A stretch of DNA of 41,615 nucleotides from the NCBI GenBank assembly GCA_016787925.1, contig JAEUSK010000050.1:1-41615 (forward strand), read 5' to 3'. The stretch comes from a bacterium. Lineage in GTDB: Bacteria; CLD3; SB21. Below, piece after piece: positions 6,392 through 24,202 of this stretch (positions are counted from its first letter, which is position 1; each line of letters starts with the position of its first letter). The notes beneath the pieces are model-generated. The model was not told where the DNA came from. It was given only the letters and a program-made list of their open reading frames with translations, and ran no database searches. The translations under genes and the position numbers were made by a program.

Positions 6392-9193
6392 ATGAAGTAT
6401 GGGTTGTCCTGTCTCTTCATACTTTTTTTTGCGGTACCCGTTTGGTCTCAGATCAATATGACTAACCTTAGTCAACTGGATCAACACGGCACGAATTACG
6501 CCAATATTTGGGGGTACACCGATTCCCTTGGGCGTGAGTATGCGCTTTTGGGCTGTAATACTGGGACGGCGGTGATTGAAATCACCAATCCGTCCATACC
6601 GGTGGAAAGAGCGTTTATTCCTGGCGGTACATCCAGTTGGCATGAGATCCAATCCTGGGGGAAATACGCATATGTAGTGTCGGAAGCGGGAGGCAGCGGA
6701 TTACAGATCATTGATATGTCCCAGCTGCCCGTTACGGCAACACTGGTTAATACGTGGACAACAACCGGTTACGATCATACGCATGATATTCAGATTCGCG
6801 ACGGGTATGCCTATTTGACCGGCGGGAATGCGACGCCGGTGGGGGGCATTAAGATATTAAGTCTTGCGGATCCCGTTAACCCTGTGGAAGTTGGAAGTTT
6901 TAATAATGAATATATCCATGACTGTTACGTTCGAAATGATACTATCTATGCGGCGGCCATATTTTCAGGGAAAGTGTACGTGATCGATGCAAAAAATAAA
7001 TCCAACCTGCAGGTTGTTCACTCATACACTTACCCCGGAGCTTTTACTCACAATACGGCATTGTCCGATAACGGCCAAATTCTTTTTACAACGGACGAAA
7101 CAAGCAGCCCCGCCGGAAGCCTGCGAATTTGGGATATTTCAACTTTGCGGGATGGCATTGCGAATAATACAAATATCTCTCAACTGGGATCGTACGGGAG
7201 TTCCGGGATTGTGCATAATGTATATGCCAAAGGGAAATATGCCTACGCTTCCTATTATACGGAAGGCGTACGCATTTTTGATGTCAGCAATCCATCAGCG
7301 CCGATTGTTGCAGGACATTATGACACATATACTCCGAGTAACTCCGCGCAATTCGCCGGTGCGTGGGGTGTTTATCCGTACTTTCCATCCGGAAATATTG
7401 CGGTTTCCGATATCAGCGGCGGCCTTTACGTTCTTGGCTTCTCAGGAAAAGAAACTGGACAAATATCAGGGATCGTAACCGACAGTATCTCCGGGGAACC
7501 AATCAAGGATGTAACTATAACGCTTTTGCAGGATAATCTGACGCGTACCACCAATGATTCCGGCCGGTATAATTTTACAGCATTATCAGGCAATTCAACT
7601 TTAAAAATCGTTAAACCGGGATACGTTACTATTTATCGGGATGCAACTGTTCCGACTAATTCTGCATCGAATTTTGATTATGCGATGACCCGAAATTTAC
7701 CGCAAACACCCCAGCATGTTACCATCAGCCATGATAGTGCATCGCTTACGTTAACCTGGCGGCAAAATCAGGAACCCTTTTTCATGCGGTATAGAATTTA
7801 TGGCGGGACGTCTCCTAATCCTGTCACGGTACTTGATTCTCTCGACAATCGTCAGGATACGGTAATAACATTCAGCGGACTGACCAACGGTACTTTGTAT
7901 TATTTCCGGCTGACGGTTGTAGATTCCTCATTCCGTGAAAGTGTGTTTTCTACCGAAGTAAGCGAGGCTCCGAATATCCCCGGATTCGAACCGCCCGAAA
8001 CGCCTGCGAATGTCACTATAAGCAGCGACAGTGCTCGCGTGACACTGCAGTGGAATCAGAATCAGGATGGCGATTTTATGAGGTATAGAATTTATGGCGG
8101 AACTTCCCCGGGCCCTACCGTATCCATAGATTCTGTTGAAAACCGGGTTGATACCATTAAAACAATCGCCGGGCTTGTCAACGGCACGACTTACTATTTC
8201 CGTATCACGGCAGTTGATAATCATTACGTGGAAAGCGGTTTTTCTGCACAAGTGAGCGCCACGCCCCAAACGCCTTCATTAAGTCTGACGACCTCACTTT
8301 ATCAGAATTCGCTGCTCACGAAATATGTTGATATCATTGTGACCTCGGATGTTGATTTGACGGGCGCGCCAACCGTCAAACTTTGGCGAACAACGGACAC
8401 GACCGTTATTGCCATGTCAGTCATCTCGCAAAATGTTTACAAAGGATCCTACGCATTTGATGCGGACGGAATTTATAAAATCCGCACGCGGGCGGTGTCA
8501 TACCGTGGGCAGGACTCAACAAAGGAGCGAACCTATTCAGTCTCGCTGGCAAAACCCGGAATTCCGGTGGTTTTGAAATCCGCAGATGGTTTAGCCCGTC
8601 TTCAAATACTGGACAATTCCGTTTCTGAAGAAACATGCTTTATTTTGAATAATGAGACAATCAAAAATGAAACCGCGTATTATTTCGGACCCACAAACGA
8701 GTTTTCTTCAACTATACGGGTAGAGATTCAATACGATCCTGCCAGGTTCGCCGAGACGGATAAGCTTTTTATCTTTAGATATGAGGACGGGCAATGGCAA
8801 CGCCTCGAGAGCCTGGTTTTACCAAAGTATAATAAAGTAGTTGCGAATGTAAATAAACTGGGCGTATTCAAGGTTGATGAAGATTACGAAATGACGGCAC
8901 ATAATTTGGTCGTGAAATCTTATAATCTAAAACAAAATTACCCGAATCCTTTTAATCCGTCTACCACAATTGAATATGATATGCCTGAAGACGGGCGTTT
9001 GTCTATTGTGGTATACAACCTGCTCGGACAGAAAGTCAGGACTTTATATGATGCGCAGCGTTCTGCCGGTCGATACACGGTTATTTGGGACGGACGACAT
9101 GATAATGGACGCGAAGCCGCAAGTGGAATTTACCTATACCGATTACAGACGAAAAACTTTATTCAGACTAAGAGAATGCTTTTTATAAAATAA
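6392..9193 (+). CDS. Secreted choice-of-anchor B (LVIVD repeat) protein with two FnIII domains and a FlgD/T9SS-type C-terminal sorting domain
   Basis: This 933-residue exported protein begins with a signal peptide ending near AVPVWSQ (residue 20). Residues about 20-355 are LVIVD-type beta-propeller repeats (for example QIIDMSQLP, RIFDVSNPSAP) of the choice-of-anchor B family. Residues about 357-435 are a carboxypeptidase-regulatory-like domain (SGIVTDSISGEPI). About 437-530 and 534-625 are two closely related fibronectin type III domains. About 850-933 is a FlgD-like/type IX-style C-terminal domain with NPFNPSTTIEY and SGIYLYRL. It is therefore probably surface-attached or released through a type IX-like system, which is inference. 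The start follows a good AAGGAGAG ribosome site 22 bases after the DUF445 gene. Ligand and function are unknown. Confidence 0.85.
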   Translation: MKYGLSCLFILFFAVPVWSQINMTNLSQLDQHGTNYANIWGYTDSLGREYALLGCNTGTAVIEITNPSIPVERAFIPGGTSSWHEIQSWGKYAYVVSEAGGSGLQIIDMSQLPVTATLVNTWTTTGYDHTHDIQIRDGYAYLTGGNATPVGGIKILSLADPVNPVEVGSFNNEYIHDCYVRNDTIYAAAIFSGKVYVIDAKNKSNLQVVHSYTYPGAFTHNTALSDNGQILFTTDETSSPAGSLRIWDISTLRDGIANNTNISQLGSYGSSGIVHNVYAKGKYAYASYYTEGVRIFDVSNPSAPIVAGHYDTYTPSNSAQFAGAWGVYPYFPSGNIAVSDISGGLYVLGFSGKETGQISGIVTDSISGEPIKDVTITLLQDNLTRTTNDSGRYNFTALSGNSTLKIVKPGYVTIYRDATVPTNSASNFDYAMTRNLPQTPQHVTISHDSASLTLTWRQNQEPFFMRYRIYGGTSPNPVTVLDSLDNRQDTVITFSGLTNGTLYYFRLTVVDSSFRESVFSTEVSEAPNIPGFEPPETPANVTISSDSARVTLQWNQNQDGDFMRYRIYGGTSPGPTVSIDSVENRVDTIKTIAGLVNGTTYYFRITAVDNHYVESGFSAQVSATPQTPSLSLTTSLYQNSLLTKYVDIIVTSDVDLTGAPTVKLWRTTDTTVIAMSVISQNVYKGSYAFDADGIYKIRTRAVSYRGQDSTKERTYSVSLAKPGIPVVLKSADGLARLQILDNSVSEETCFILNNETIKNETAYYFGPTNEFSSTIRVEIQYDPARFAETDKLFIFRYEDGQWQRLESLVLPKYNKVVANVNKLGVFKVDEDYEMTAHNLVVKSYNLKQNYPNPFNPSTTIEYDMPEDGRLSIVVYNLLGQKVRTLYDAQRSAGRYTVIWDGRHDNGREAASGIYLYRLQTKNFIQTKRMLFIK
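7701..8263 (+). repeat. Tandem duplication encoding two FnIII domains
   Basis: Two copies of about 270 bases (7701-7975 and 7992-8263) lie head to tail within the LVIVD-protein gene. They share blocks such as GGTATAGAATTTATGGCGG at 7788 and 8083. The protein copies align through HVTISHDSASLTLTW / NVTISSDSARVTLQW and RYRIYGGTSP. The nucleotide-level identity indicates a fairly recent domain duplication. Confidence 0.75.
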
Positions 9194-9238
9194 AAATGAC
9201 GAGTGAAAATTGAATTGTCAATCAAACTTAAAAGTTTT

Positions 9239-9829
9239 ATGAAAACGATTAACTTTGTTCTGCCGGTCTTTGTTCTAATATGTCAAATCTCCTGCGGTCC
9301 CGACCCGGTGAAAGAAACGACAACATACGAAGATATGATCCTAGAAGGGTGGACCAGTTATAGCCAAAACGAATTTGAAATGGCGGCTGAATGGTTTACC
9401 AAGGCCGCGAAAAAGGAACCTTCCTTCGCAGAACCTTACACCGGCTTGGCGTGGATACAAATGAAAATGGATCATTTTATTAAGGCGGAGGAGTATTTTA
9501 ATACGGGCACACTAAAAATAAATGTAACGGCTGATCACTTCGCCGGGTGGGCATTTATGAAAAATGCACAAAAAGAATATGACGTCTCTAATACGCACGC
9601 TCAAACGGCTTTGGATGCCGATGCCGAATGGAGTTTTCCCTACGCCGTCGGTCTCAGCGCATCGGACCTGAAGTTGTTGCAAGCGCAAAATTATTTTCTT
9701 CTCGCGGATTACACCAACAGCCTGCTGTTGGTGAAAACTCTAAACCCGGGTTTTGATGCGGATATTTTTGACAGTGCAGGACAAGCATTGCTTGCGAAGG
9801 AAATTGAGCGGCTGCGAAAGATCGTATAA
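9239..9829 (+). CDS. Small lipoprotein with tetratricopeptide-like repeats
   Basis: No specific family is recognised. The ATG at 9239 gives a 196-residue protein with a classic lipoprotein-style leader (MKTINFVLPVFVLICQISC), so the mature protein would be lipid-anchored at Cys19. The lipobox is loose, as in many FCB lipoproteins. An in-frame GTG at 9203 would add twelve residues before the leader and is less likely. Residues about 33-110 form helical TPR-like pairs (GWTSYSQNEFEMAAEWFTKA, YTGLAWIQMKMDHFIKAEEY). The gene follows the LVIVD protein by 45 bases on the same strand and ends at a shared bidirectional terminator. A scaffold role in the envelope is plausible. Confidence 0.7.
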   Translation: MKTINFVLPVFVLICQISCGPDPVKETTTYEDMILEGWTSYSQNEFEMAAEWFTKAAKKEPSFAEPYTGLAWIQMKMDHFIKAEEYFNTGTLKINVTADHFAGWAFMKNAQKEYDVSNTHAQTALDADAEWSFPYAVGLSASDLKLLQAQNYFLLADYTNSLLLVKTLNPGFDADIFDSAGQALLAKEIERLRKIV

Positions 9830-9838
9830 GTATCATTC

Positions 9839-9874
9839 AAAAAAAAAGTCCGGCCATGAGCGGACGAACTTTTT
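9839..9874. terminator. Bidirectional terminator between convergent lipoprotein genes
   Basis: The stem GTCCG (9848-9852) pairs with CGGAC (9861-9865) around an 8-base loop. Nine A residues flank it on the left and five T residues on the right, so each strand reads a hairpin followed by a U tract. The leftward version, with nine U residues directly after the stem, is the stronger. It serves both the TPR lipoprotein and the lytic transglycosylase gene. Confidence 0.8.
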
Positions 9875-9894
9875 ATGACTTTTATTTGTTTAAT

Positions 9895-12012
9895 TCAGTT
9901 GTTAGTACCAACGTAGATTTTCAGTTTTTCTCCGACGCGGATTGAGTTGGAAGATAATTTGTTCCATCGTTTGATGCTGCTTACTTCGACGTTAAATAGT
10001 TTTGCGATACTGATCAATGTGTCGTTGTCCTGCACCACGTAAATCTTCGTTCCCGGCTCGTCCGCTGCGACTTCCTTAGCTTTTTTCCTGGTCGCATTGC
10101 GATATCCTTCGTCAGGAATATACGTATCTATCCACAGGGTCAGCACTTGTCCCGGAAAAATAGGATCGCCGTAGTATAATCCGTTCCAGTCCCTGATGTT
10201 CTGTGCCAAAATATTGTACCATTCTGCAATTTCCCCTAGGGTATTTCCTCCCTCGACTTTGTATAATATTTTTTTCTTACCTGCCTTGTCATCGGCTTTT
10301 TTCTTGGTCGTTGTTGATCCCGCGCCGGATGAATAGCTGCCGGCGCTTGTCGTGGATTTCGTATACGCAGGTGTTGTAACTGCCGAAGCCGTGTAGGATT
10401 TCGGCGCAACCGGAATGATAATGTATTGGCCGGTGATCAGATTAACGGAACTCTTGAGCTGATTGGCCTGCATGATCGCTTTGATATCCGTGCCGTAACG
10501 ATTGGCAATCAGTGACAGCGTTTCACCGTATTTTACCTGGTATCTGACCCATGAGCGTTTTTTCTCCTGCGGAATTTTGGCGTAATTCTCAAGGAATGTG
10601 GCGCGCGTGCCGGACGGCAATTTGAGCAAGTACCGGGAAGTCGTTGGCGGCGTGCACCAACGCAATAGCGCGGGATTGATATCACGAATGCTGTCCACCG
10701 TCGAATTCACACAACCGGCAATAATCTCAAGGTCAAGGCATTCGGTTACTGTGACTGTGTCGACAAGCATTGGAAGGTCTTTTTGTAAAGTGACTCCGAA
10801 TTGATCCGGGTTTTTGGCTATGGTCGCCGATGCTATAAAGTAGGGCACATAATTCTTAGCCTCTCTCGGCATCTTAGACATTTCCCAGTAGTCACGCGTA
10901 TTGTTCTTTTTCATCGCACGGTTGACGCCGCCCGGGCCTGCGTTGTATGCGGCTAATACAAGATACCAATCGCCGTAAATATTGAACAGGTCCTTAAGAT
11001 GTTTGATAGCGGCCTTGGTTGACACATAAATATCCCGCCGTTCGTCTACCCACCAATCCACATTCATTCCGTAGATTGCAGCAGTTGATTTGGTAAATTG
11101 CCAGGGTCCAACCGCATGCGCGCGTGATCTGGCAGTTGCGCTGAAACCGCTTTCGATCATGGCGAGATAAATCAGATCTTCGGAGACGCCCTCCTGTTTG
11201 ATCACTTCCCTGATCAGGTTCTCAAATTGTCCCATTTTCTTATACAAAAAGCGAATGTTGGCGCCGCCGTCTTTGGCCATATAGTCGATGTATTTTTGTA
11301 TTCTTTCATTTTGGATATTCATAGGAATGTAATCCAACGCGTGGCCTTTTGCTATGGGCGCTTTGATCGAGCCGTATGAAGTGAGGCCGGATAAACCGGT
11401 ATCAAAGAACACCAGACGACTCAAAACCGTTTGATTAAAGGCGTCGCCGTTAAATTCATTCTTAAGTTCAAGCAAATTCTTATAATGTTCAATTATTCCG
11501 TTTGCCAGCCAATTACCGTAATCGGATCTGTCTGCAACCTGCGTATCATCCTGTTCCGTTCTCGTTTCTCCGATATTAAAAGGCAGCATAAGGTCGCCGC
11601 CATTGCCATTGGCGGCATCGTCATCATACGACTCCTTACTTGCTAATATATCTCCCAGGGCAACGAGAGCATCAATGGCGGCAAGATATTCTTGTTTTGC
11701 AGCTTCTGCATTTTGTTCGACGAACCAGAAGTTAAGGGCATTGGCATAATGCTTTTTTACGTTCTCGATCGCGACGACTTCACCCGACCCGTTTGTTTGC
11801 TGAAAGCCTTTATCTGAATCTGAATCGACCAGCTTAAGGAATTGAACTTCTTGAACCGGCAGCTGAACGGAATCAGCCTTTTGGCTAGTAATCTCAGCCG
11901 GTTTTGTTCCAGCCTTGTTTAGCTCCGGATTAAGAACACTTTGCGACGAACCGCAGCCGATCATGACCCATACAAAAAATGTCAACCACATAGTTCTCAA
12001 GTAAAATCTCAT
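9895..12012 (-). CDS. mltD: Membrane-bound lytic murein transglycosylase D-like lipoprotein with three LysM domains
   Basis: This periplasmic peptidoglycan-cleaving enzyme has a lipoprotein leader with lipid Cys at residue 20 (WVMIGC) and an extended linker. The SLT/GH23 catalytic domain (about 275-390) has the catalytic E287 in AMIESGFSATA, the GPWQF motif and AAYNAGPGGVNRA. A degenerate LysM-like stretch lies near 415-465. Three LysM peptidoglycan-binding domains follow (about 489-535, 583-630 and 657-702), separated by Ser/Thr- and Lys-rich linkers. The length of 705 is longer than E. coli MltD (452), because of an extended N-terminal region and the extra linkers. A near-consensus promoter and an AGGAG ribosome site lie upstream. 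It is probably a single-gene transcript. Confidence 0.92.
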   Translation of the reverse strand: MRFYLRTMWLTFFVWVMIGCGSSQSVLNPELNKAGTKPAEITSQKADSVQLPVQEVQFLKLVDSDSDKGFQQTNGSGEVVAIENVKKHYANALNFWFVEQNAEAAKQEYLAAIDALVALGDILASKESYDDDAANGNGGDLMLPFNIGETRTEQDDTQVADRSDYGNWLANGIIEHYKNLLELKNEFNGDAFNQTVLSRLVFFDTGLSGLTSYGSIKAPIAKGHALDYIPMNIQNERIQKYIDYMAKDGGANIRFLYKKMGQFENLIREVIKQEGVSEDLIYLAMIESGFSATARSRAHAVGPWQFTKSTAAIYGMNVDWWVDERRDIYVSTKAAIKHLKDLFNIYGDWYLVLAAYNAGPGGVNRAMKKNNTRDYWEMSKMPREAKNYVPYFIASATIAKNPDQFGVTLQKDLPMLVDTVTVTECLDLEIIAGCVNSTVDSIRDINPALLRWCTPPTTSRYLLKLPSGTRATFLENYAKIPQEKKRSWVRYQVKYGETLSLIANRYGTDIKAIMQANQLKSSVNLITGQYIIIPVAPKSYTASAVTTPAYTKSTTSAGSYSSGAGSTTTKKKADDKAGKKKILYKVEGGNTLGEIAEWYNILAQNIRDWNGLYYGDPIFPGQVLTLWIDTYIPDEGYRNATRKKAKEVAADEPGTKIYVVQDNDTLISIAKLFNVEVSSIKRWNKLSSNSIRVGEKLKIYVGTNN

Positions 12013-19626: not shown

Positions 19627-20448
19627 CTAAAGCTTCTCTACAACTTTTTTCATGATAGCCGTCATTTTCGGTTCTGTCTCGCCCGCTGTTTTAAGGATTT
19701 TCTTAATGTCTACCGGCTGCAGCGAGTCCGGAAAGCACTCATCGGTGACAATTGAAAAACCTAAACAAGCAATACCCATGTGGTGGGCCACTATAACTTC
19801 GGGAATCGTCGACATGCCAACCACATCCGCTCCGATATACCGCAGAAATCGATATTCCGCACGCGTTTCCAGATTAGGACCCATTACGGCAACATACACG
19901 CCGCGCTGAACTTTAATTTTTTCTTCCAGGGCAATTTGTTCCGCCATCGCAATAAGTTTTTTTGAATACGGTTCGCTCATGTCCGGGAATCGCGGTCCGA
20001 GGCTGTCTTCGTTCTTGCCACGCAGGGGATTATCGCCAAGCAAATTGATATGGTCGTCCATGATCATGATATCACCGGCCACATATTGAGGGTTCATTCC
20101 TCCGCATGCATTGGAAACTAACAGCGTTTTGACACCCAAAAATTTCATCACCCTAACGGGAAATGTGATCTGCTGCATCGTGTAGCCTTCATAGAAATGA
20201 AAACGGCCCTGCATGGCAACTACGTTTTTCCCGCCGAGTTTACCAAAAATTAATTTTCCGGCGTGGCTTTCCACGGTTGAAAGCGGGAAATGAGGTATAT
20301 CCGCGTATGAAATTTCTGTTTCTTTTTGAATTTCTAACGCTAACCCGCCCAATCCCGTTCCGAGGATTATACCGACGGGAGTTTCCGTTTTCGTCTTTTT
20401 TCGTATCGCAAGAACGGCTTCTTGTATCTGATCCAGATAGGTGCTCAT
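19627..20448 (-). CDS. punA: Purine nucleoside phosphorylase (trimeric PNP-I family)
   Basis: This enzyme splits purine nucleosides with phosphate to free base and ribose-1-phosphate for salvage. The 273-residue protein matches the trimeric PNP/MTAP family: GTGLGGLA (30-37, phosphate loop), STVESHAGKLIFG (57-69), SNACGGMNP (112-120) and GPNLETRAEYRF with the base-binding E194. At the position where classical PNPs carry the base-selecting Asn (TN), this protein has Asp236 (TDECFPD), which may widen use toward 6-aminopurines. It is the last gene of a leftward operon; its ATG overlaps the stop of the 69-residue gene by four bases (ATGA), indicating translational coupling. Confidence 0.92.
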   Translation of the reverse strand: MSTYLDQIQEAVLAIRKKTKTETPVGIILGTGLGGLALEIQKETEISYADIPHFPLSTVESHAGKLIFGKLGGKNVVAMQGRFHFYEGYTMQQITFPVRVMKFLGVKTLLVSNACGGMNPQYVAGDIMIMDDHINLLGDNPLRGKNEDSLGPRFPDMSEPYSKKLIAMAEQIALEEKIKVQRGVYVAVMGPNLETRAEYRFLRYIGADVVGMSTIPEVIVAHHMGIACLGFSIVTDECFPDSLQPVDIKKILKTAGETEPKMTAIMKKVVEKL

Positions 20449-20654
20449 TTTTTCTCCGATTTCTTTTTTTCCAGTTCAGCGTAAATATCGTCGATCATGT
20501 CTTCGGGCTTTTTCTTGGCATATTCTCCCAGCATCTTGTCAAAATCAGCTTTCTTAAATATGCCGGTCGGATTTGTACTGAGGCTATCTAGGTCTTCAAT
20601 GACTTTCTTTTTGTCATCTGTTTTTTCATCGTCTTTTTTGTCGTTTTCACTCAT
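20445..20654 (-). CDS. 69-residue protein duplicating the C-terminal module of the neighbouring DivIVA protein
   Basis: This small, very charged protein has a Lys/Asp-rich tail (1-20). Residues 21-66 then align without gaps to residues 247-292 of the DivIVA-like protein encoded just upstream, with 30 of 46 positions identical by hand count (shared TG.FKKADF.KMLG and IYAELEKKKS). It therefore looks like a partial tandem duplication that kept an open frame. It has four-base ATGA overlaps with divIVA upstream and punA downstream, so its expression must be tied to both. No known domain is recognised. It could compete with, or bind, the DivIVA tail or that tail's partner, which is inference. Confidence 0.8.
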   Translation of the reverse strand: MSENDKKDDEKTDDKKKVIEDLDSLSTNPTGIFKKADFDKMLGEYAKKKPEDMIDDIYAELEKKKSEKK

Positions 20655-20827
20655 TGTTTTTCCTCGGGATTGGAGTTATCTTTTTGTAATGATTTTTTCT
20701 TTTCAAGTTCGGCATAGATCTGATTGATCATTTCCTCCGAACGAGTGTGAATATCATCGCCAAGCATTTTGTGGAAATCCGCTTTCTTGAACATCCCGGT
20801 CGCGTGTTCCGATATGGAGTCGAGATC
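20457..20827 (-). repeat. Tandem duplication of a 138-base coding module (DivIVA tail and small protein)
   Basis: The segments 20690-20827 (DivIVA residues 247-292) and 20457-20594 (small-protein residues 21-66) encode the same 46-residue module in the same strand and spacing, about 233 bases apart. The similarity is clear in protein and partly retained in DNA, suggesting an old duplication kept by selection. Confidence 0.75.
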
Positions 20828-21565
20828 GTCGAGCATTTGCTGCATCTTTGCCTGCGCTTCCGGATCGATGACACGGGGTACTTCATTATCTTTGTAGCGG
20901 CTCAGCGCATGGGCGAGTTCCTGGGGAATATCGTCGAGCTCAACATCGCTGAGAAAACTATCAATGCCATCCGCTTGTGGTATTTCCACAGGTGTTTCAT
21001 CCGCAGCATTTTCCGATGGTGGGTTTTTCGAATTGGCGGAATCAGTTTCCATGGCATCCGATATGGTGCCGATATTTACGTCAGTTCCGGAGTCTGATCT
21101 TAGCGGTTCCTCGCTGTCCGAAATGATTCCCAATAGAGCCATCTGCGACTTTAGATATTCCCGTAAATGGGCGGCCACTTTTGCGCGCTGGTCAAGCAGG
21201 AATTTTGTTTCCGAGGCGATACGGTCAGCCTGTTTTTTGGATTCTGTAATGATGTGTTCCGCCTCAGACTTGGCTTTCTGAAGGATGAAGTCGGCGTCAA
21301 TTTTTGAATCCATCAGGCGCTCCACCTTCGCCATTTCAAGTTTATAGCTTTGGAGCATTTTTTCATTTTCATTGAGTTGAATTCTTAATTGTTCCATTTC
21401 ATTTTCAACGAGTTTTATTTTCTGCAGAAGGGCGGCATTGTCATTATTTAATTCGGTATAATTCTCTGCCACGACCTCGAGAAACGCAGACACCTCGTGG
21501 CGGTTATAGCCGCGGAACGCACGCTTGAACTCCTGATGCAATATATCGGTCAGTTCCAGTCTCAC
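20651..21565 (-). CDS. divIVA: DivIVA domain-containing protein
   Basis: The 304-residue protein starts with the DivIVA/GpsB lipid-binding head (LTDILHQEFKRAFRGYNRHE, residues 5-24). A long coiled coil follows (about 30-135). A low-complexity acidic linker comes next (about 150-235), then a distinct 46-residue tail module (247-292) that is repeated in the next gene. DivIVA proteins recognise curved membrane at poles or septa and recruit partners for division, chromosome or envelope functions. Its place next to yggS recalls the yggS(ylmE)-sepF-divIVA order of Gram-positive division clusters, although no sepF is visible here. Start and stop codons overlap the neighbours by four bases each. Confidence 0.88.
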   Translation of the reverse strand: MRLELTDILHQEFKRAFRGYNRHEVSAFLEVVAENYTELNNDNAALLQKIKLVENEMEQLRIQLNENEKMLQSYKLEMAKVERLMDSKIDADFILQKAKSEAEHIITESKKQADRIASETKFLLDQRAKVAAHLREYLKSQMALLGIISDSEEPLRSDSGTDVNIGTISDAMETDSANSKNPPSENAADETPVEIPQADGIDSFLSDVELDDIPQELAHALSRYKDNEVPRVIDPEAQAKMQQMLDDLDSISEHATGMFKKADFHKMLGDDIHTRSEEMINQIYAELEKKKSLQKDNSNPEEKQ

Positions 21566-22344
21566 AATTTTTCCTCCATTTGGTTAGACGCGGCCGATAA
21601 CAAACTCTTAACTGCACGCTTGCGCTTTCCGAAGATAGCTGTCCCAATGCGGAGATGCGTCGCGCCTTCTTCAATAGCAATCTCAAAATCATTGCTCATG
21701 CCCATGGAAAGGCAGTCCATGTCCACATTCGGAATATTCTTACCTGCTATGAATTCCCTCAATTCCCGCAATTTCCTGAAATACGAGCGGATCTTAACGG
21801 TATCGTTTGCCGTTGTGGCCGTCAGCGCACCGATAGTCATGAGCCCTTTGATTTTCACGTTCTTAAGTTCCGAAACCTGCTTGACCAATTCGAGTGTATC
21901 ATCGGGATCAATACCATACTTTGATTTCTCGCGCGAAGTATTGACCTGAATTAGAACCGGCATAATTTTATCTTTGGTATAGGATCTTCGATCAATCTCT
22001 GCGGCAAGCCTCAATGAATCCACAGAATGTATGATATCAAAAAGTTCGACGGCTTGCCGGACCTTATTGGTTTGCAAGTGCCCGATATAATGCCATTGAA
22101 CGTGAGACAGGCTCTTGTCTTTCTGCAGGGCGGGAAGTTTTTCTTTTGCTTCCTGCACTTTATTTTCTCCGATATGACAAATACCTGCGCTTAGAGCTTC
22201 TTTGATCTCTTCCACACCGTAGGTTTTAGAAACCGCAATTAATTGCATGTCTTCCGGTTTTCTGCCGGAGCGTTGGCACGCATCTCTAATACGCTGAAGA
22301 GTCGCGTGTACTCTGTACGTGGTAGAATTTGTATTAGATTCCAT
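21562..22344 (-). CDS. yggS: YggS/PROSC-family pyridoxal 5'-phosphate homeostasis protein
   Basis: This is a single-domain PLP-binding protein with an alanine-racemase-like TIM barrel, involved in vitamin B6 and amino-acid homeostasis and lacking a known catalytic activity. The PLP lysine is K40 in LIAVSKTYG. Other conserved segments are HYIGHLQTNKVR, IHSVDSLRLAAEI, VLIQVNTSREKSKYG and the phosphate-binding LSMGMSNDFEIAIEEGATHLRIGTAIFG. The length of 260 residues is slightly above the usual 230, with an N-terminal extension before the first helix. It is the second gene of the leftward operon, 14 bases after the unknown 315-residue gene, and it overlaps divIVA by ATGA. Confidence 0.95.
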   Translation of the reverse strand: MESNTNSTTYRVHATLQRIRDACQRSGRKPEDMQLIAVSKTYGVEEIKEALSAGICHIGENKVQEAKEKLPALQKDKSLSHVQWHYIGHLQTNKVRQAVELFDIIHSVDSLRLAAEIDRRSYTKDKIMPVLIQVNTSREKSKYGIDPDDTLELVKQVSELKNVKIKGLMTIGALTATTANDTVKIRSYFRKLRELREFIAGKNIPNVDMDCLSMGMSNDFEIAIEEGATHLRIGTAIFGKRKRAVKSLLSAASNQMEEKL

Positions 22345-22358
22345 TAGTATCCTGTGTT

Positions 22359-23306
22359 TTATTCTGCGTTTTTGCCGAAGCCGGACCGGATTCTGGCTTC
22401 CGGGTCGGTTTCAATCTTGATGCGTTCAATACCGTCGATTACATTTTTTAAGTACTTGGTCATCACGTTATCGCCCAGATAGATGATGGACAATATCATT
22501 TTTTCATGGGCAATTTCAAAGCCGATACTGCTAAACGTAACTTTCTTGATGTACTTTGTCAGTTCAGGGTTTTTTTCAACTGCTTCTAATTTGCTTGCCA
22601 GTTCCTCGTCCAAAGGGAATCGCTGGTTAAACGCCAGAAATGGCTCTCCAAATTGCGCAAACCGAAACTCATGTTCGGTGATGGCGTCCGAGAGGCGGCG
22701 GATGCCCTCAGATATGATCGGTGAAATAGCGCTTCCGTCCGTCGTAAATACTTTTGGGGATCCGAATTTGTCCGATAAAATAAGTCCGATGCTATTGTGC
22801 TTTTCTATGATCTTCTTAAAAAATAATTCGATAGCGACGTGCGGTATGTGACTTCGGTTTTTTCTAGACTCAAATATCTGCGCAACCGTCAGGATATCTT
22901 CTTTGATCTTAGTGATCGCACACTGGGGATCCAGGTGATAACAGCCCTCATTCAAGCATGCTTCGATCGACTCGGAACAGCCGGTTCGTTCCTTAAAGTC
23001 CAGCAAATTTTCGAATTTATTTCGGATATCCTTTTCGTTGGCAGAAATATTTAGCGCCTCGCTGTAATAAGCAACGGCAGTCCGAATGAGCGCTTCTAGA
23101 AAGTTCTTAAGCTGATCGTAATTCAGTTCCTCTATAAAGGAATCGTATTCCTTATAAATATGAAATCGGCTTTTGATTCTATTTATTTTATCATCTTCAA
23201 AAAGCCTCGAATCGAGCTCGAAACTTTTCTGAAAATTGCCTGTTTCACCGCCCGAAAATTTCTGTTCGGCTTCAGGCAAGACTGCATCGTGAATCTTTAC
23301 TTCCAT
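22359..23306 (-). CDS. Uncharacterised protein with a four-cysteine cluster, first gene of the yggS-divIVA operon
   Basis: I do not recognise the family of this 315-residue, soluble-looking, mainly helical protein. There is no signal peptide or membrane segment. Its only four cysteines, C110, C117, C122 and C129, sit in a symmetric C-x6-C-x4-C-x6-C pattern with His124 inside (GCYHLDPQC). That looks like a metal or iron-sulfur site or a disulfide pair. Residues about 155-300 have mixed strand and helix (GLILSDKFGSPKVFTTDG, KVTFSSIGFEIAHEK), possibly a regulatory domain. It is first in a coupled operon with yggS, divIVA, the 69-residue protein and punA, and has its own candidate promoter at 23352-23380. 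Confidence 0.75.
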   Translation of the reverse strand: MEVKIHDAVLPEAEQKFSGGETGNFQKSFELDSRLFEDDKINRIKSRFHIYKEYDSFIEELNYDQLKNFLEALIRTAVAYYSEALNISANEKDIRNKFENLLDFKERTGCSESIEACLNEGCYHLDPQCAITKIKEDILTVAQIFESRKNRSHIPHVAIELFFKKIIEKHNSIGLILSDKFGSPKVFTTDGSAISPIISEGIRRLSDAITEHEFRFAQFGEPFLAFNQRFPLDEELASKLEAVEKNPELTKYIKKVTFSSIGFEIAHEKMILSIIYLGDNVMTKYLKNVIDGIERIKIETDPEARIRSGFGKNAE

Positions 23307-23509: not shown

Positions 23510-24202
23510 ATGGTCAAAAGAGCTTGTTTCGTTTTTATTGCGGCAACATGCCTGCTTTTCGTTATTAGCCATCAGGCAGAAGCCCAATTTACGGTTAAAG
23601 TGGACCAGGACACGATTTTGGCGGGCGATCAGGAAGCAAAAATAATCGTCTCGCCGTCGAAGGGGGAGGCAAATCTAAATTGCGTTTCCCGAAAGGGCGG
23701 GGGAAATTTCAGCGATTTTAAGACCGTTCAATTAGCTGAAGGCAGCGTCAGCCAAGCTACTTTTACAAGCCCTTTTCCGGGCGAAGTTGAGATCGACGTA
23801 TTAGACGGAAAATTTAATAAGATCGGAAAAACCAATATCACGGTCGTTGCTCCAACTATAACGGTAATGGAAGAAAAGTCGGTAAATAGCATTGACTGGC
23901 AAAATAAGACGATGCCTCTTTATGTGCGTGTTACGGATCACCGTGATAATTTGGTTAAAACGGCCTCGCTCAAATGTAAATTGACGGAAATAGTCGGAAA
24001 AAAGATCGTATCGACAACATCCAAAGTTACAGAGTTTGTACTTCGCGCCGATTATTATGAAGCAATGATAACCGGCTTGAAAGATGCTTCATATCGGCTT
24101 GAGGTCATAGATGTAAATCATCTTGAAGCGTTTGATGCCTTGGATAATCCCGATAATCCGCATCCGTCAACTGTGATTGAAGGACTGAACATTTCCTTTT
24201 AG
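23510..24202 (+). CDS. Secreted beta-rich (Ig-like) protein of unknown function
   Basis: The 230-residue protein has a clear signal peptide (hydrophobic core about 6-20, cleavage near AEAQ, residues 23-26). Two or more beta-sandwich-like segments follow, for example FTVKVDQDTILAGDQEAKIIV and TITVMEEKSVNSIDW. Repeated short strands and glycine turns suggest bacterial Ig-like folds. Two Cys in the mature part (NLNCVS, SLKCKL) could form a disulfide. There is no sorting domain or lipobox, so it would be periplasmic or released. It forms a single-gene unit: good promoter, strong GAAGGGG ribosome site and a hairpin terminator directly after the stop. Family not recognised. Confidence 0.75.
   Translation: MVKRACFVFIAATCLLFVISHQAEAQFTVKVDQDTILAGDQEAKIIVSPSKGEANLNCVSRKGGGNFSDFKTVQLAEGSVSQATFTSPFPGEVEIDVLDGKFNKIGKTNITVVAPTITVMEEKSVNSIDWQNKTMPLYVRVTDHRDNLVKTASLKCKLTEIVGKKIVSTTSKVTEFVLRADYYEAMITGLKDASYRLEVIDVNHLEAFDALDNPDNPHPSTVIEGLNISF

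Follow-up and report, generated by a model that had tools for sequence, protein, structure and literature searches.

A protein with an uncatalogued four-cysteine domain heads a conserved yggS-divIVA operon and is probably a metal- or redox-dependent adaptor

In a bacterial contig of 41,615 nucleotides, analysed at its full length and referred to here as the window, a gene encoding a protein of 315 residues (gene A) precedes yggS and divIVA. An earlier note on this DNA had pointed out that all its cysteines lie in one 20-residue C-x6-C-x4-C-x6-C segment; this was confirmed for C110, C117, C122 and C129, the only cysteines of the protein, and the chance that four randomly placed cysteines fall within 20 of 315 residues is low (p about 9e-4). 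No significant match to the gene A protein was obtained in Pfam, NCBIfam or PDB sequences. Based on alignments, it is composed of an N-terminal part, named here the Cys4 domain and helical according to a low-confidence prediction, and a C-terminal domain (Table 1). The evidence described below establishes Cys4 as a real, uncatalogued domain family of about 115 residues with a coherent signalling context, and the gene A protein probably serves as an adaptor, dependent on a metal or on redox state, in the control of the cell pole, pili or division.

Table 1. Position of gene A, its domains and the downstream genes in the window
Feature	Position	Strand	Remarks
Gene A, 315-aa protein (Cys4 domain and roadblock-like C-terminal domain)	22359..23306	-	ATG start; orthologues in 7/7 family genomes
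Cys4 domain, residues about 31-146	22869..23216	-	From alignments; elsewhere alone or receiver-fused
C110-x6-C117-x4-C122-x6-C129 cluster	22920..22979	-	Invariant in 18/18 family members; 87/92 non-redundant homologues
C-terminal domain, residues 147-315	22362..22868	-	Roadblock/LC7-like via homology to group B; group A alone without a match
yggS, PLP-binding protein	21562..22344	-	TIGR00044, E 1.3e-62; 3' of gene A in 7/7 genomes
divIVA-family gene	20651..21565	-	PF05103, E 1e-15; 3' of yggS in 7/7 genomes
Purine nucleoside phosphorylase gene	19627..20448	-	PF01048, E 2.9e-56; 3' of divIVA in 6/7 genomes

The gene order conserved in the host's family is A, yggS, divIVA and purine nucleoside phosphorylase. 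The placing of gene A at the head of a yggS-divIVA operon stood for both genes in all seven genomes, but the conserved order is longer and adds the phosphorylase; in the seventh genome the contig stops short of the position of this last gene. The stop of gene A lies fourteen bases from the start of yggS, which in turn shares 4 bases with divIVA. Since promoter-like sites near gene A (8, against a mean of 5.7, sd 2.1, in shuffles) and terminator-like sites (2, against 3.0) were about as frequent as in shuffled sequence, no promoter is claimed for the gene. On the opposite strand, a divergent gene (23510-24202, +) encodes a protein of 230 aa whose N-terminus is signal-like and which matches no Pfam family; the gene was called beside gene A in 6/7 family genomes.

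Two paralogues of the gene A protein are encoded in the host genome, and the 18 members found in the host's family constitute group A (gene A, 7 genomes), group B (6) and group C (5). In a tree of the domain these appear as three clades joined with modest support (81/88), group A on a long branch, a topology that fits the duplication of one ancestral protein containing Cys4 and the C-terminal domain. The spacing of the cysteines is kept in 18/18 aligned members, and the invariant positions are L66, I94, C110, E112, C117, C122, C129, A130, K133, F145, R148, R151, P184, R295 and I296. This conservation is telling because the proteins of groups B and C share just 15-21% identity with the gene A protein. 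The histidine that the earlier note had pointed out inside the cluster did not withstand the alignment: H124 occurs in 3/7 group-A orthologues and a role for it was rejected.

The family extends well beyond the host. A single-protein search of 60 genomes was positive in 7, all from the host's family, and negative in 53. A profile of 18 proteins detected 16 positive genomes among 386 (the 7 family genomes, 8 with the Cys4 part only and 1 with the C-terminal part only), and a profile of 62 Cys4 domains again detected 16, from five phyla; the matches depended on the profile, as G247 (C-terminal part only) was found by the former only and G229 by the latter only. Cys4 is encoded in 7/9 genomes of the host's phylum, 5/5 of the phylum of G059, 9/13 of the phylum of G088, 58/82 of the phylum of G328 and 15/40 of the phylum of G081. 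That no family is recognised proved correct for the Cys4 part, which gave no consistent match in Pfam, NCBIfam (outside receiver parts), PHROGs or PADLOC; when 62 diverse members were compared with Pfam, three families were matched, each by one member. Weak matches to Phlebovirus G2, YhdX, uS15, S100, CARD and hepatitis C-type E2 were taken as chance. A defence or phage family was rejected, as PADLOC matched 0/5 and PHROGs 0/4 Cys4 proteins, and a scan of viral contigs with one stand-alone member revealed no relative. The spacing string was searched for in the literature and no paper was found, a weak test given that motifs are written in many ways.

Across the five phyla the pattern is kept in 87/92 non-redundant homologues, a set derived from 114 loci by retaining sequences below 90% identity, with the partial duplication between the genes of L047-L106 and L030-L037 thereby removed. 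L019, whose protein is identical to that of L005 and whose contig, at 64,273 bases, is as long as that of G001 (L136), was not counted as independent, and a 59-aa contig-end fragment of G466 was left out while 28 other genes of its phylum were included. The exact spacing was present in 60/60 loci fetched from the phyla of G059, G088, G328 and G081. Among 885 distinct ORF-predicted genes of at least 100 aa in the fetched loci, 88 contain the exact pattern and 88/88 of these match the Cys4 profile, hence the pattern is specific to the family. The alignment of homologues that the earlier note had proposed as a check thus returned cysteines invariant in the host's family and nearly so outside it.

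The exceptions are instructive. In 28 further genes from the phylum of G328, 22 keep the pattern and 6, forming three same-genus pairs (L107-L112, from G432-G435, G441 and G442), have lost the whole set of four; none of these 28 retains just two or three cysteines of the set. All four are lost as well in the receiver protein L209 (G229), and the tree places the losses on separate branches (L107/L108, L109, L111/L112 and L209), its deep forks being weakly resolved. Homologues without the cysteines had been named as evidence against the site: they exist, as a minority of 5/92 non-redundant sequences plus L209, and their all-or-none loss in few branches speaks for a unit and not against a site. 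The four residues act as one unit, given that the exceptions lost all of them together, and this behaviour, in a domain of the cytoplasm, points to a single metal site, for which the cysteines are most likely the metal or Fe-S ligands. The view that the cluster is a metal, Fe-S or redox site and not a product of chance is thereby supported, as a conserved set of metal-ligand residues is present and kept as a unit (18/18, 87/92, joint loss).

The C-terminal domain of group B shows a likeness to roadblock/LC7 proteins that is reasonably supported by profile comparisons. A group-B C-terminal profile run against the PDB gave roadblock/LC7 proteins in 7/8 matches, each weak (E 0.19-0.63), and the full-length profile gave two roadblocks among four matches; for the group-A C-terminal profile, 0/3 PDB matches were roadblocks. 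Compared with a roadblock alignment of 11 rows, 10 of them from the same genomes, the joint C-termini of groups A, B and C scored E 1.2e-4 over 41 columns and group B alone E 3.2e-3, while groups A and C alone gave nothing of note. None of 100 column shuffles reached the joint score or that of group B, and 6/100 and 5/100 reached the scores of groups A and C, respectively (one artefactual score of 126.75 is counted within the 5/100). One row of that alignment, L038 (G247), is roadblock-like by eye and has no Pfam match and no useful PDB match. With Pfam Robl_LC7 (PF03259) at E <= 1 in the seven family genomes, canonical roadblocks were matched and no A, B or C protein was. AlphaFold, run with two sequences, produced low-confidence models (pLDDT 34.6 and 43.7). 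A roadblock-like C-terminus may be assigned to group A only through its full-length homology to group B.

The loci of the paralogues differ from that of gene A. In the host, the group B gene is located in the order pilin, B, prepilin peptidase, histidine kinase, receiver, pilB-type ATPase and pilC-type protein, and in three further genomes it lies between pilin and peptidase genes, as assigned by sequence similarity only. Histidine kinase-like and receiver genes were seen inside the type IV pilus operon with a group-B gene in L141 (G000:C141), L143, L145 and L146. Group C lies between gpsA and ispG (by Pfam in the host, by eye in G004). The ispG/GcpE gene 3' of group C is long, about 700 codons (L142, host, 8206-10287; L144, 5248-7356), and two stretches of the host gene match PF04551; ispG enzymes are 4Fe-4S proteins. 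Canonical roadblock proteins are also present in the family genomes, as is an MglA-like GTPase that has a P-loop (Arf family, E 3.2e-7) and whose gene does not adjoin gene A. Two tandem roadblock-type genes, the second weakly matching PF03259, were observed in L168 (1003-1407, 1423-1770), L170 and L171, flanked by a STAS-like/ABC transporter region on one side and by a cysteine synthase-like gene on the other.

Outside the host's family, Cys4 either constitutes a small protein by itself or is fused to the receiver of a response regulator. Copies in the phylum of G088 have 275-299 codons, and in both copies tested the receiver is N-terminal to Cys4 (PF00072, E 3.2e-20 in L036 and 2.8e-22 in L037). 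Most Cys4 copies in the phylum of G328 are small separate proteins; two response-regulator-cluster genes adjoin Cys4 in L154, L155, L156, L164, L165 and L166; in L154 both of these neighbours consist of a receiver and DUF4388, according to Pfam. Directly 5' of Cys4 in 5/6 representatives of this phylum there is a gene of about 165 aa without a Pfam family, which a profile search found adjoining Cys4 in the sixth (G448) too. In a PDB comparison with a profile of this protein, Ras-family GTPases made up 9/10 weak matches (best E 0.026), and the P-loop, as defined in PMC4316618, is absent from the five proteins aligned; on this sequence basis it is named here a Ras-like pseudo-GTPase. Both genes are found in 55 of the 82 genomes of the phylum, neither in 18, Cys4 only in 3 and the Ras-like gene only in 6 (Fisher p 2e-10, relatedness ignored); counted by families, both are present in 17/23 and neither in 6/23, a weak G198 match having been dropped. 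The Ras-like gene is adjacent, on the same strand and always upstream of Cys4 in 37/55 genomes, and in the other 18, all from families f268, f277 and f278, both genes are kept but apart. Cys4 lacks its cysteines in 6/37 adjacent pairs, which indicates that the partnership is independent of them; the copies concerned, L107-L112, lie directly downstream of the Ras-like gene. In the other four Cys4 phyla this gene was detected in 13/67 genomes, with weaker scores and exclusively in the phylum of G081, and a profile search found it in none of the nine genomes of the host's phylum. Other neighbours include MotA/TolQ/ExbB-family genes and housekeeping genes; G388 (L060, L061) has two copies, a stand-alone Cys4 that neighbours MotA/ExbB-family genes and a longer one of 275 codons.

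The context of Cys4 is a variant of small-GTPase and two-component signalling modules, and it has relatives. In Myxococcus, type IV pili are assembled at the leading pole under stimulation by MglA-GTP, and the roadblock protein MglB is the GAP of MglA (PMC9481161, PMC11580455). The gene A protein resembles this MglA/MglB polarity module of Myxococcus xanthus (PMC9481161 and PMC4316618) in the roadblock-like character proposed for its C-terminal domain, in the MglA-like GTPase encoded in the same genomes and in the response regulators and type IV pili found near paralogues or homologues; unlike MglB, the gene A protein contains an extra N-terminal Cys4 domain, is not matched by the Pfam roadblock model and has no GTPase gene beside its own. 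The conservons of Actinomycetota, described in PMC8510531 as kinase-like CvnA, roadblock CvnB, DUF742 CvnC and Ras-like CvnD, likewise are a recurring set of a signalling protein, a roadblock-type protein, a small protein and a Ras-like protein; the Cys4 sets, however, lack DUF742, their Ras-like neighbour has no P-loop and DUF4388 response regulators replace the membrane kinase-like protein. PATAN/DUF4388 response regulators (PMC11580455) adjoin the stand-alone Cys4 in the phylum of G328, as neighbours only, and the gene A protein contains no DUF4388.

Slightly less than an even chance is given here to the reading of the gene A protein as a soluble two-domain adaptor in which a Cys4 metal site is combined with a divergent, MglB-type roadblock/LC7 domain that feeds a small-GTPase polarity module. 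In this model, for which we infer the presence and kind of the cofactor, sensing, the partner, GTPase binding, polarity output and phenotype, the helical N-terminal Cys4 domain would hold a metal site made by the four cysteines, with [4Fe-4S] as the most likely cofactor and Zn as a less likely one, and would either report redox, iron or oxygen state or constitute a cofactor-stabilised docking surface. A Ras-like GTPase of the MglA type, from the same cell, would be bound by the roadblock-like domain; the gene A copy, given its DivIVA operon, would exert its output at the cell pole or division site, and the group-B paralogue at type IV pili. The preference for [4Fe-4S] over Zn comes from the spacing of the cysteines, a compact 6-4-6 in which no CxxC pair occurs, by analogy with the [4Fe-4S] loop of Endonuclease III and MutY, which is C-x6-C-x2-C-x5-C: both have four cysteines in about 20 residues of a helical protein and a first spacing of 6, but Cys4 continues with 4-6 and matches no DNA glycosylase in sequence, and the likeness is an analogy only.

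Cys4 is read as a cofactor-dependent adaptor, and gene A as the copy serving the DivIVA operon, since the domain is found again and again joined to, or beside, receivers, DUF4388 response regulators, a Ras-like protein and a roadblock-like domain. In favour of the two-domain model are the cysteines invariant across distant paralogues and five phyla with their all-or-none loss, the fusions of receiver and Cys4, the pseudo-GTPase accompanying 55/58 Cys4 genomes in the phylum of G328, the roadblock matches of group B with the joint profile score and the shuffle results, the type IV pilus operon in which group B is located, and the MglA-like GTPase and canonical roadblocks of the same genomes. Against it count the group-A and group-C C-termini, which do not rise above shuffles, the Pfam roadblock model missing all three groups, the scarcity of the P-loop-less partner outside the phylum of G328, the Cys-less copies still beside the Ras-like gene, and the low pLDDT values. 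A bolder proposal, that Cys4 is an undescribed Fe-S (redox or iron) sensing domain plugged into small-GTPase signalling, located beside a nucleotide-free Ras-like pseudo-GTPase and DUF4388 regulators and fused to receivers or to a roadblock, is advanced tentatively and must be considered doubtful.

Alternatively, the four cysteines could bind a structural Zn whose sole function is to stabilise a small helical domain used for docking, in which case the protein would be a scaffold devoid of sensing. Structural Zn sites are often dispensable for the persistence of a domain, and Cys4 does persist without cysteines in at least three branches, its adjacency to the Ras-like gene being maintained in those copies; most small Zn sites, however, have a CxxC pair, which Cys4 lacks, and no Zn-binding family is matched, so that this reading is judged unlikely. 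Much less credit is given to a thiol-disulfide switch of two cysteine pairs in place of a metal site: the symmetric arrangement (x6, x4, x6) and the joint loss expected of two linked pairs agree with it, but a single pair could be lost alone, and no two- or three-cysteine homologue is present among the 28 genes, and the receiver fusion places the domain in the reducing cytoplasm, making a switch very improbable. A further possibility concerns the other half of the protein, namely that gene A encodes a regulator peculiar to the yggS-divIVA-phosphorylase operon, whose C-terminus is not a roadblock and which involves no GTPase. The fixed gene order in the host's family, the long branch of group A, the failure of PF03259 and the group-A and group-C results against shuffles would all be accommodated; yet A, B and C align over their full length, sharing P184, R295 and I296 in the C-terminal part, and group B does resemble roadblock proteins, which leaves this explanation quite improbable.

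With the adaptor as the preferred reading, the suggestion that the protein is a sensor or regulator linked to growth or division fares unevenly: a regulatory role gains from the receiver fusions, the DUF4388 and Ras-like neighbours and the roadblock-like C-terminus, but the link to growth or division consists of gene order alone, and the homologues are more suggestive of polarity, pili and two-component signalling. Titles and abstract beginnings retrieved by a full-text literature search described no tie between iron or oxygen state and Ras-like polarity signalling in bacteria.

What was a single ORF is now a member of a domain family spread over five phyla, with a candidate cofactor site and a candidate class of partners. 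If the cofactor were redox-active, iron or oxygen state would be tied to Ras-like polarity signalling in bacteria, and if Fe-S sensing were true, several little-known phyla would set polarity, pilus assembly and division in a cofactor-dependent manner. The places to look are the copy in the type IV pilus operon and the P-loop-less Ras-like neighbour. In the phylum of G328, weak Ras-like matches were also observed inside ORFs of about 530-830 codons that neighbour the pseudo-GTPase gene (for example, G401:C32:25145-25483 and G399:C16:65668-66012); these long ORFs are probably the DUF4388 response regulators, which may carry a second degenerate Ras-like domain.
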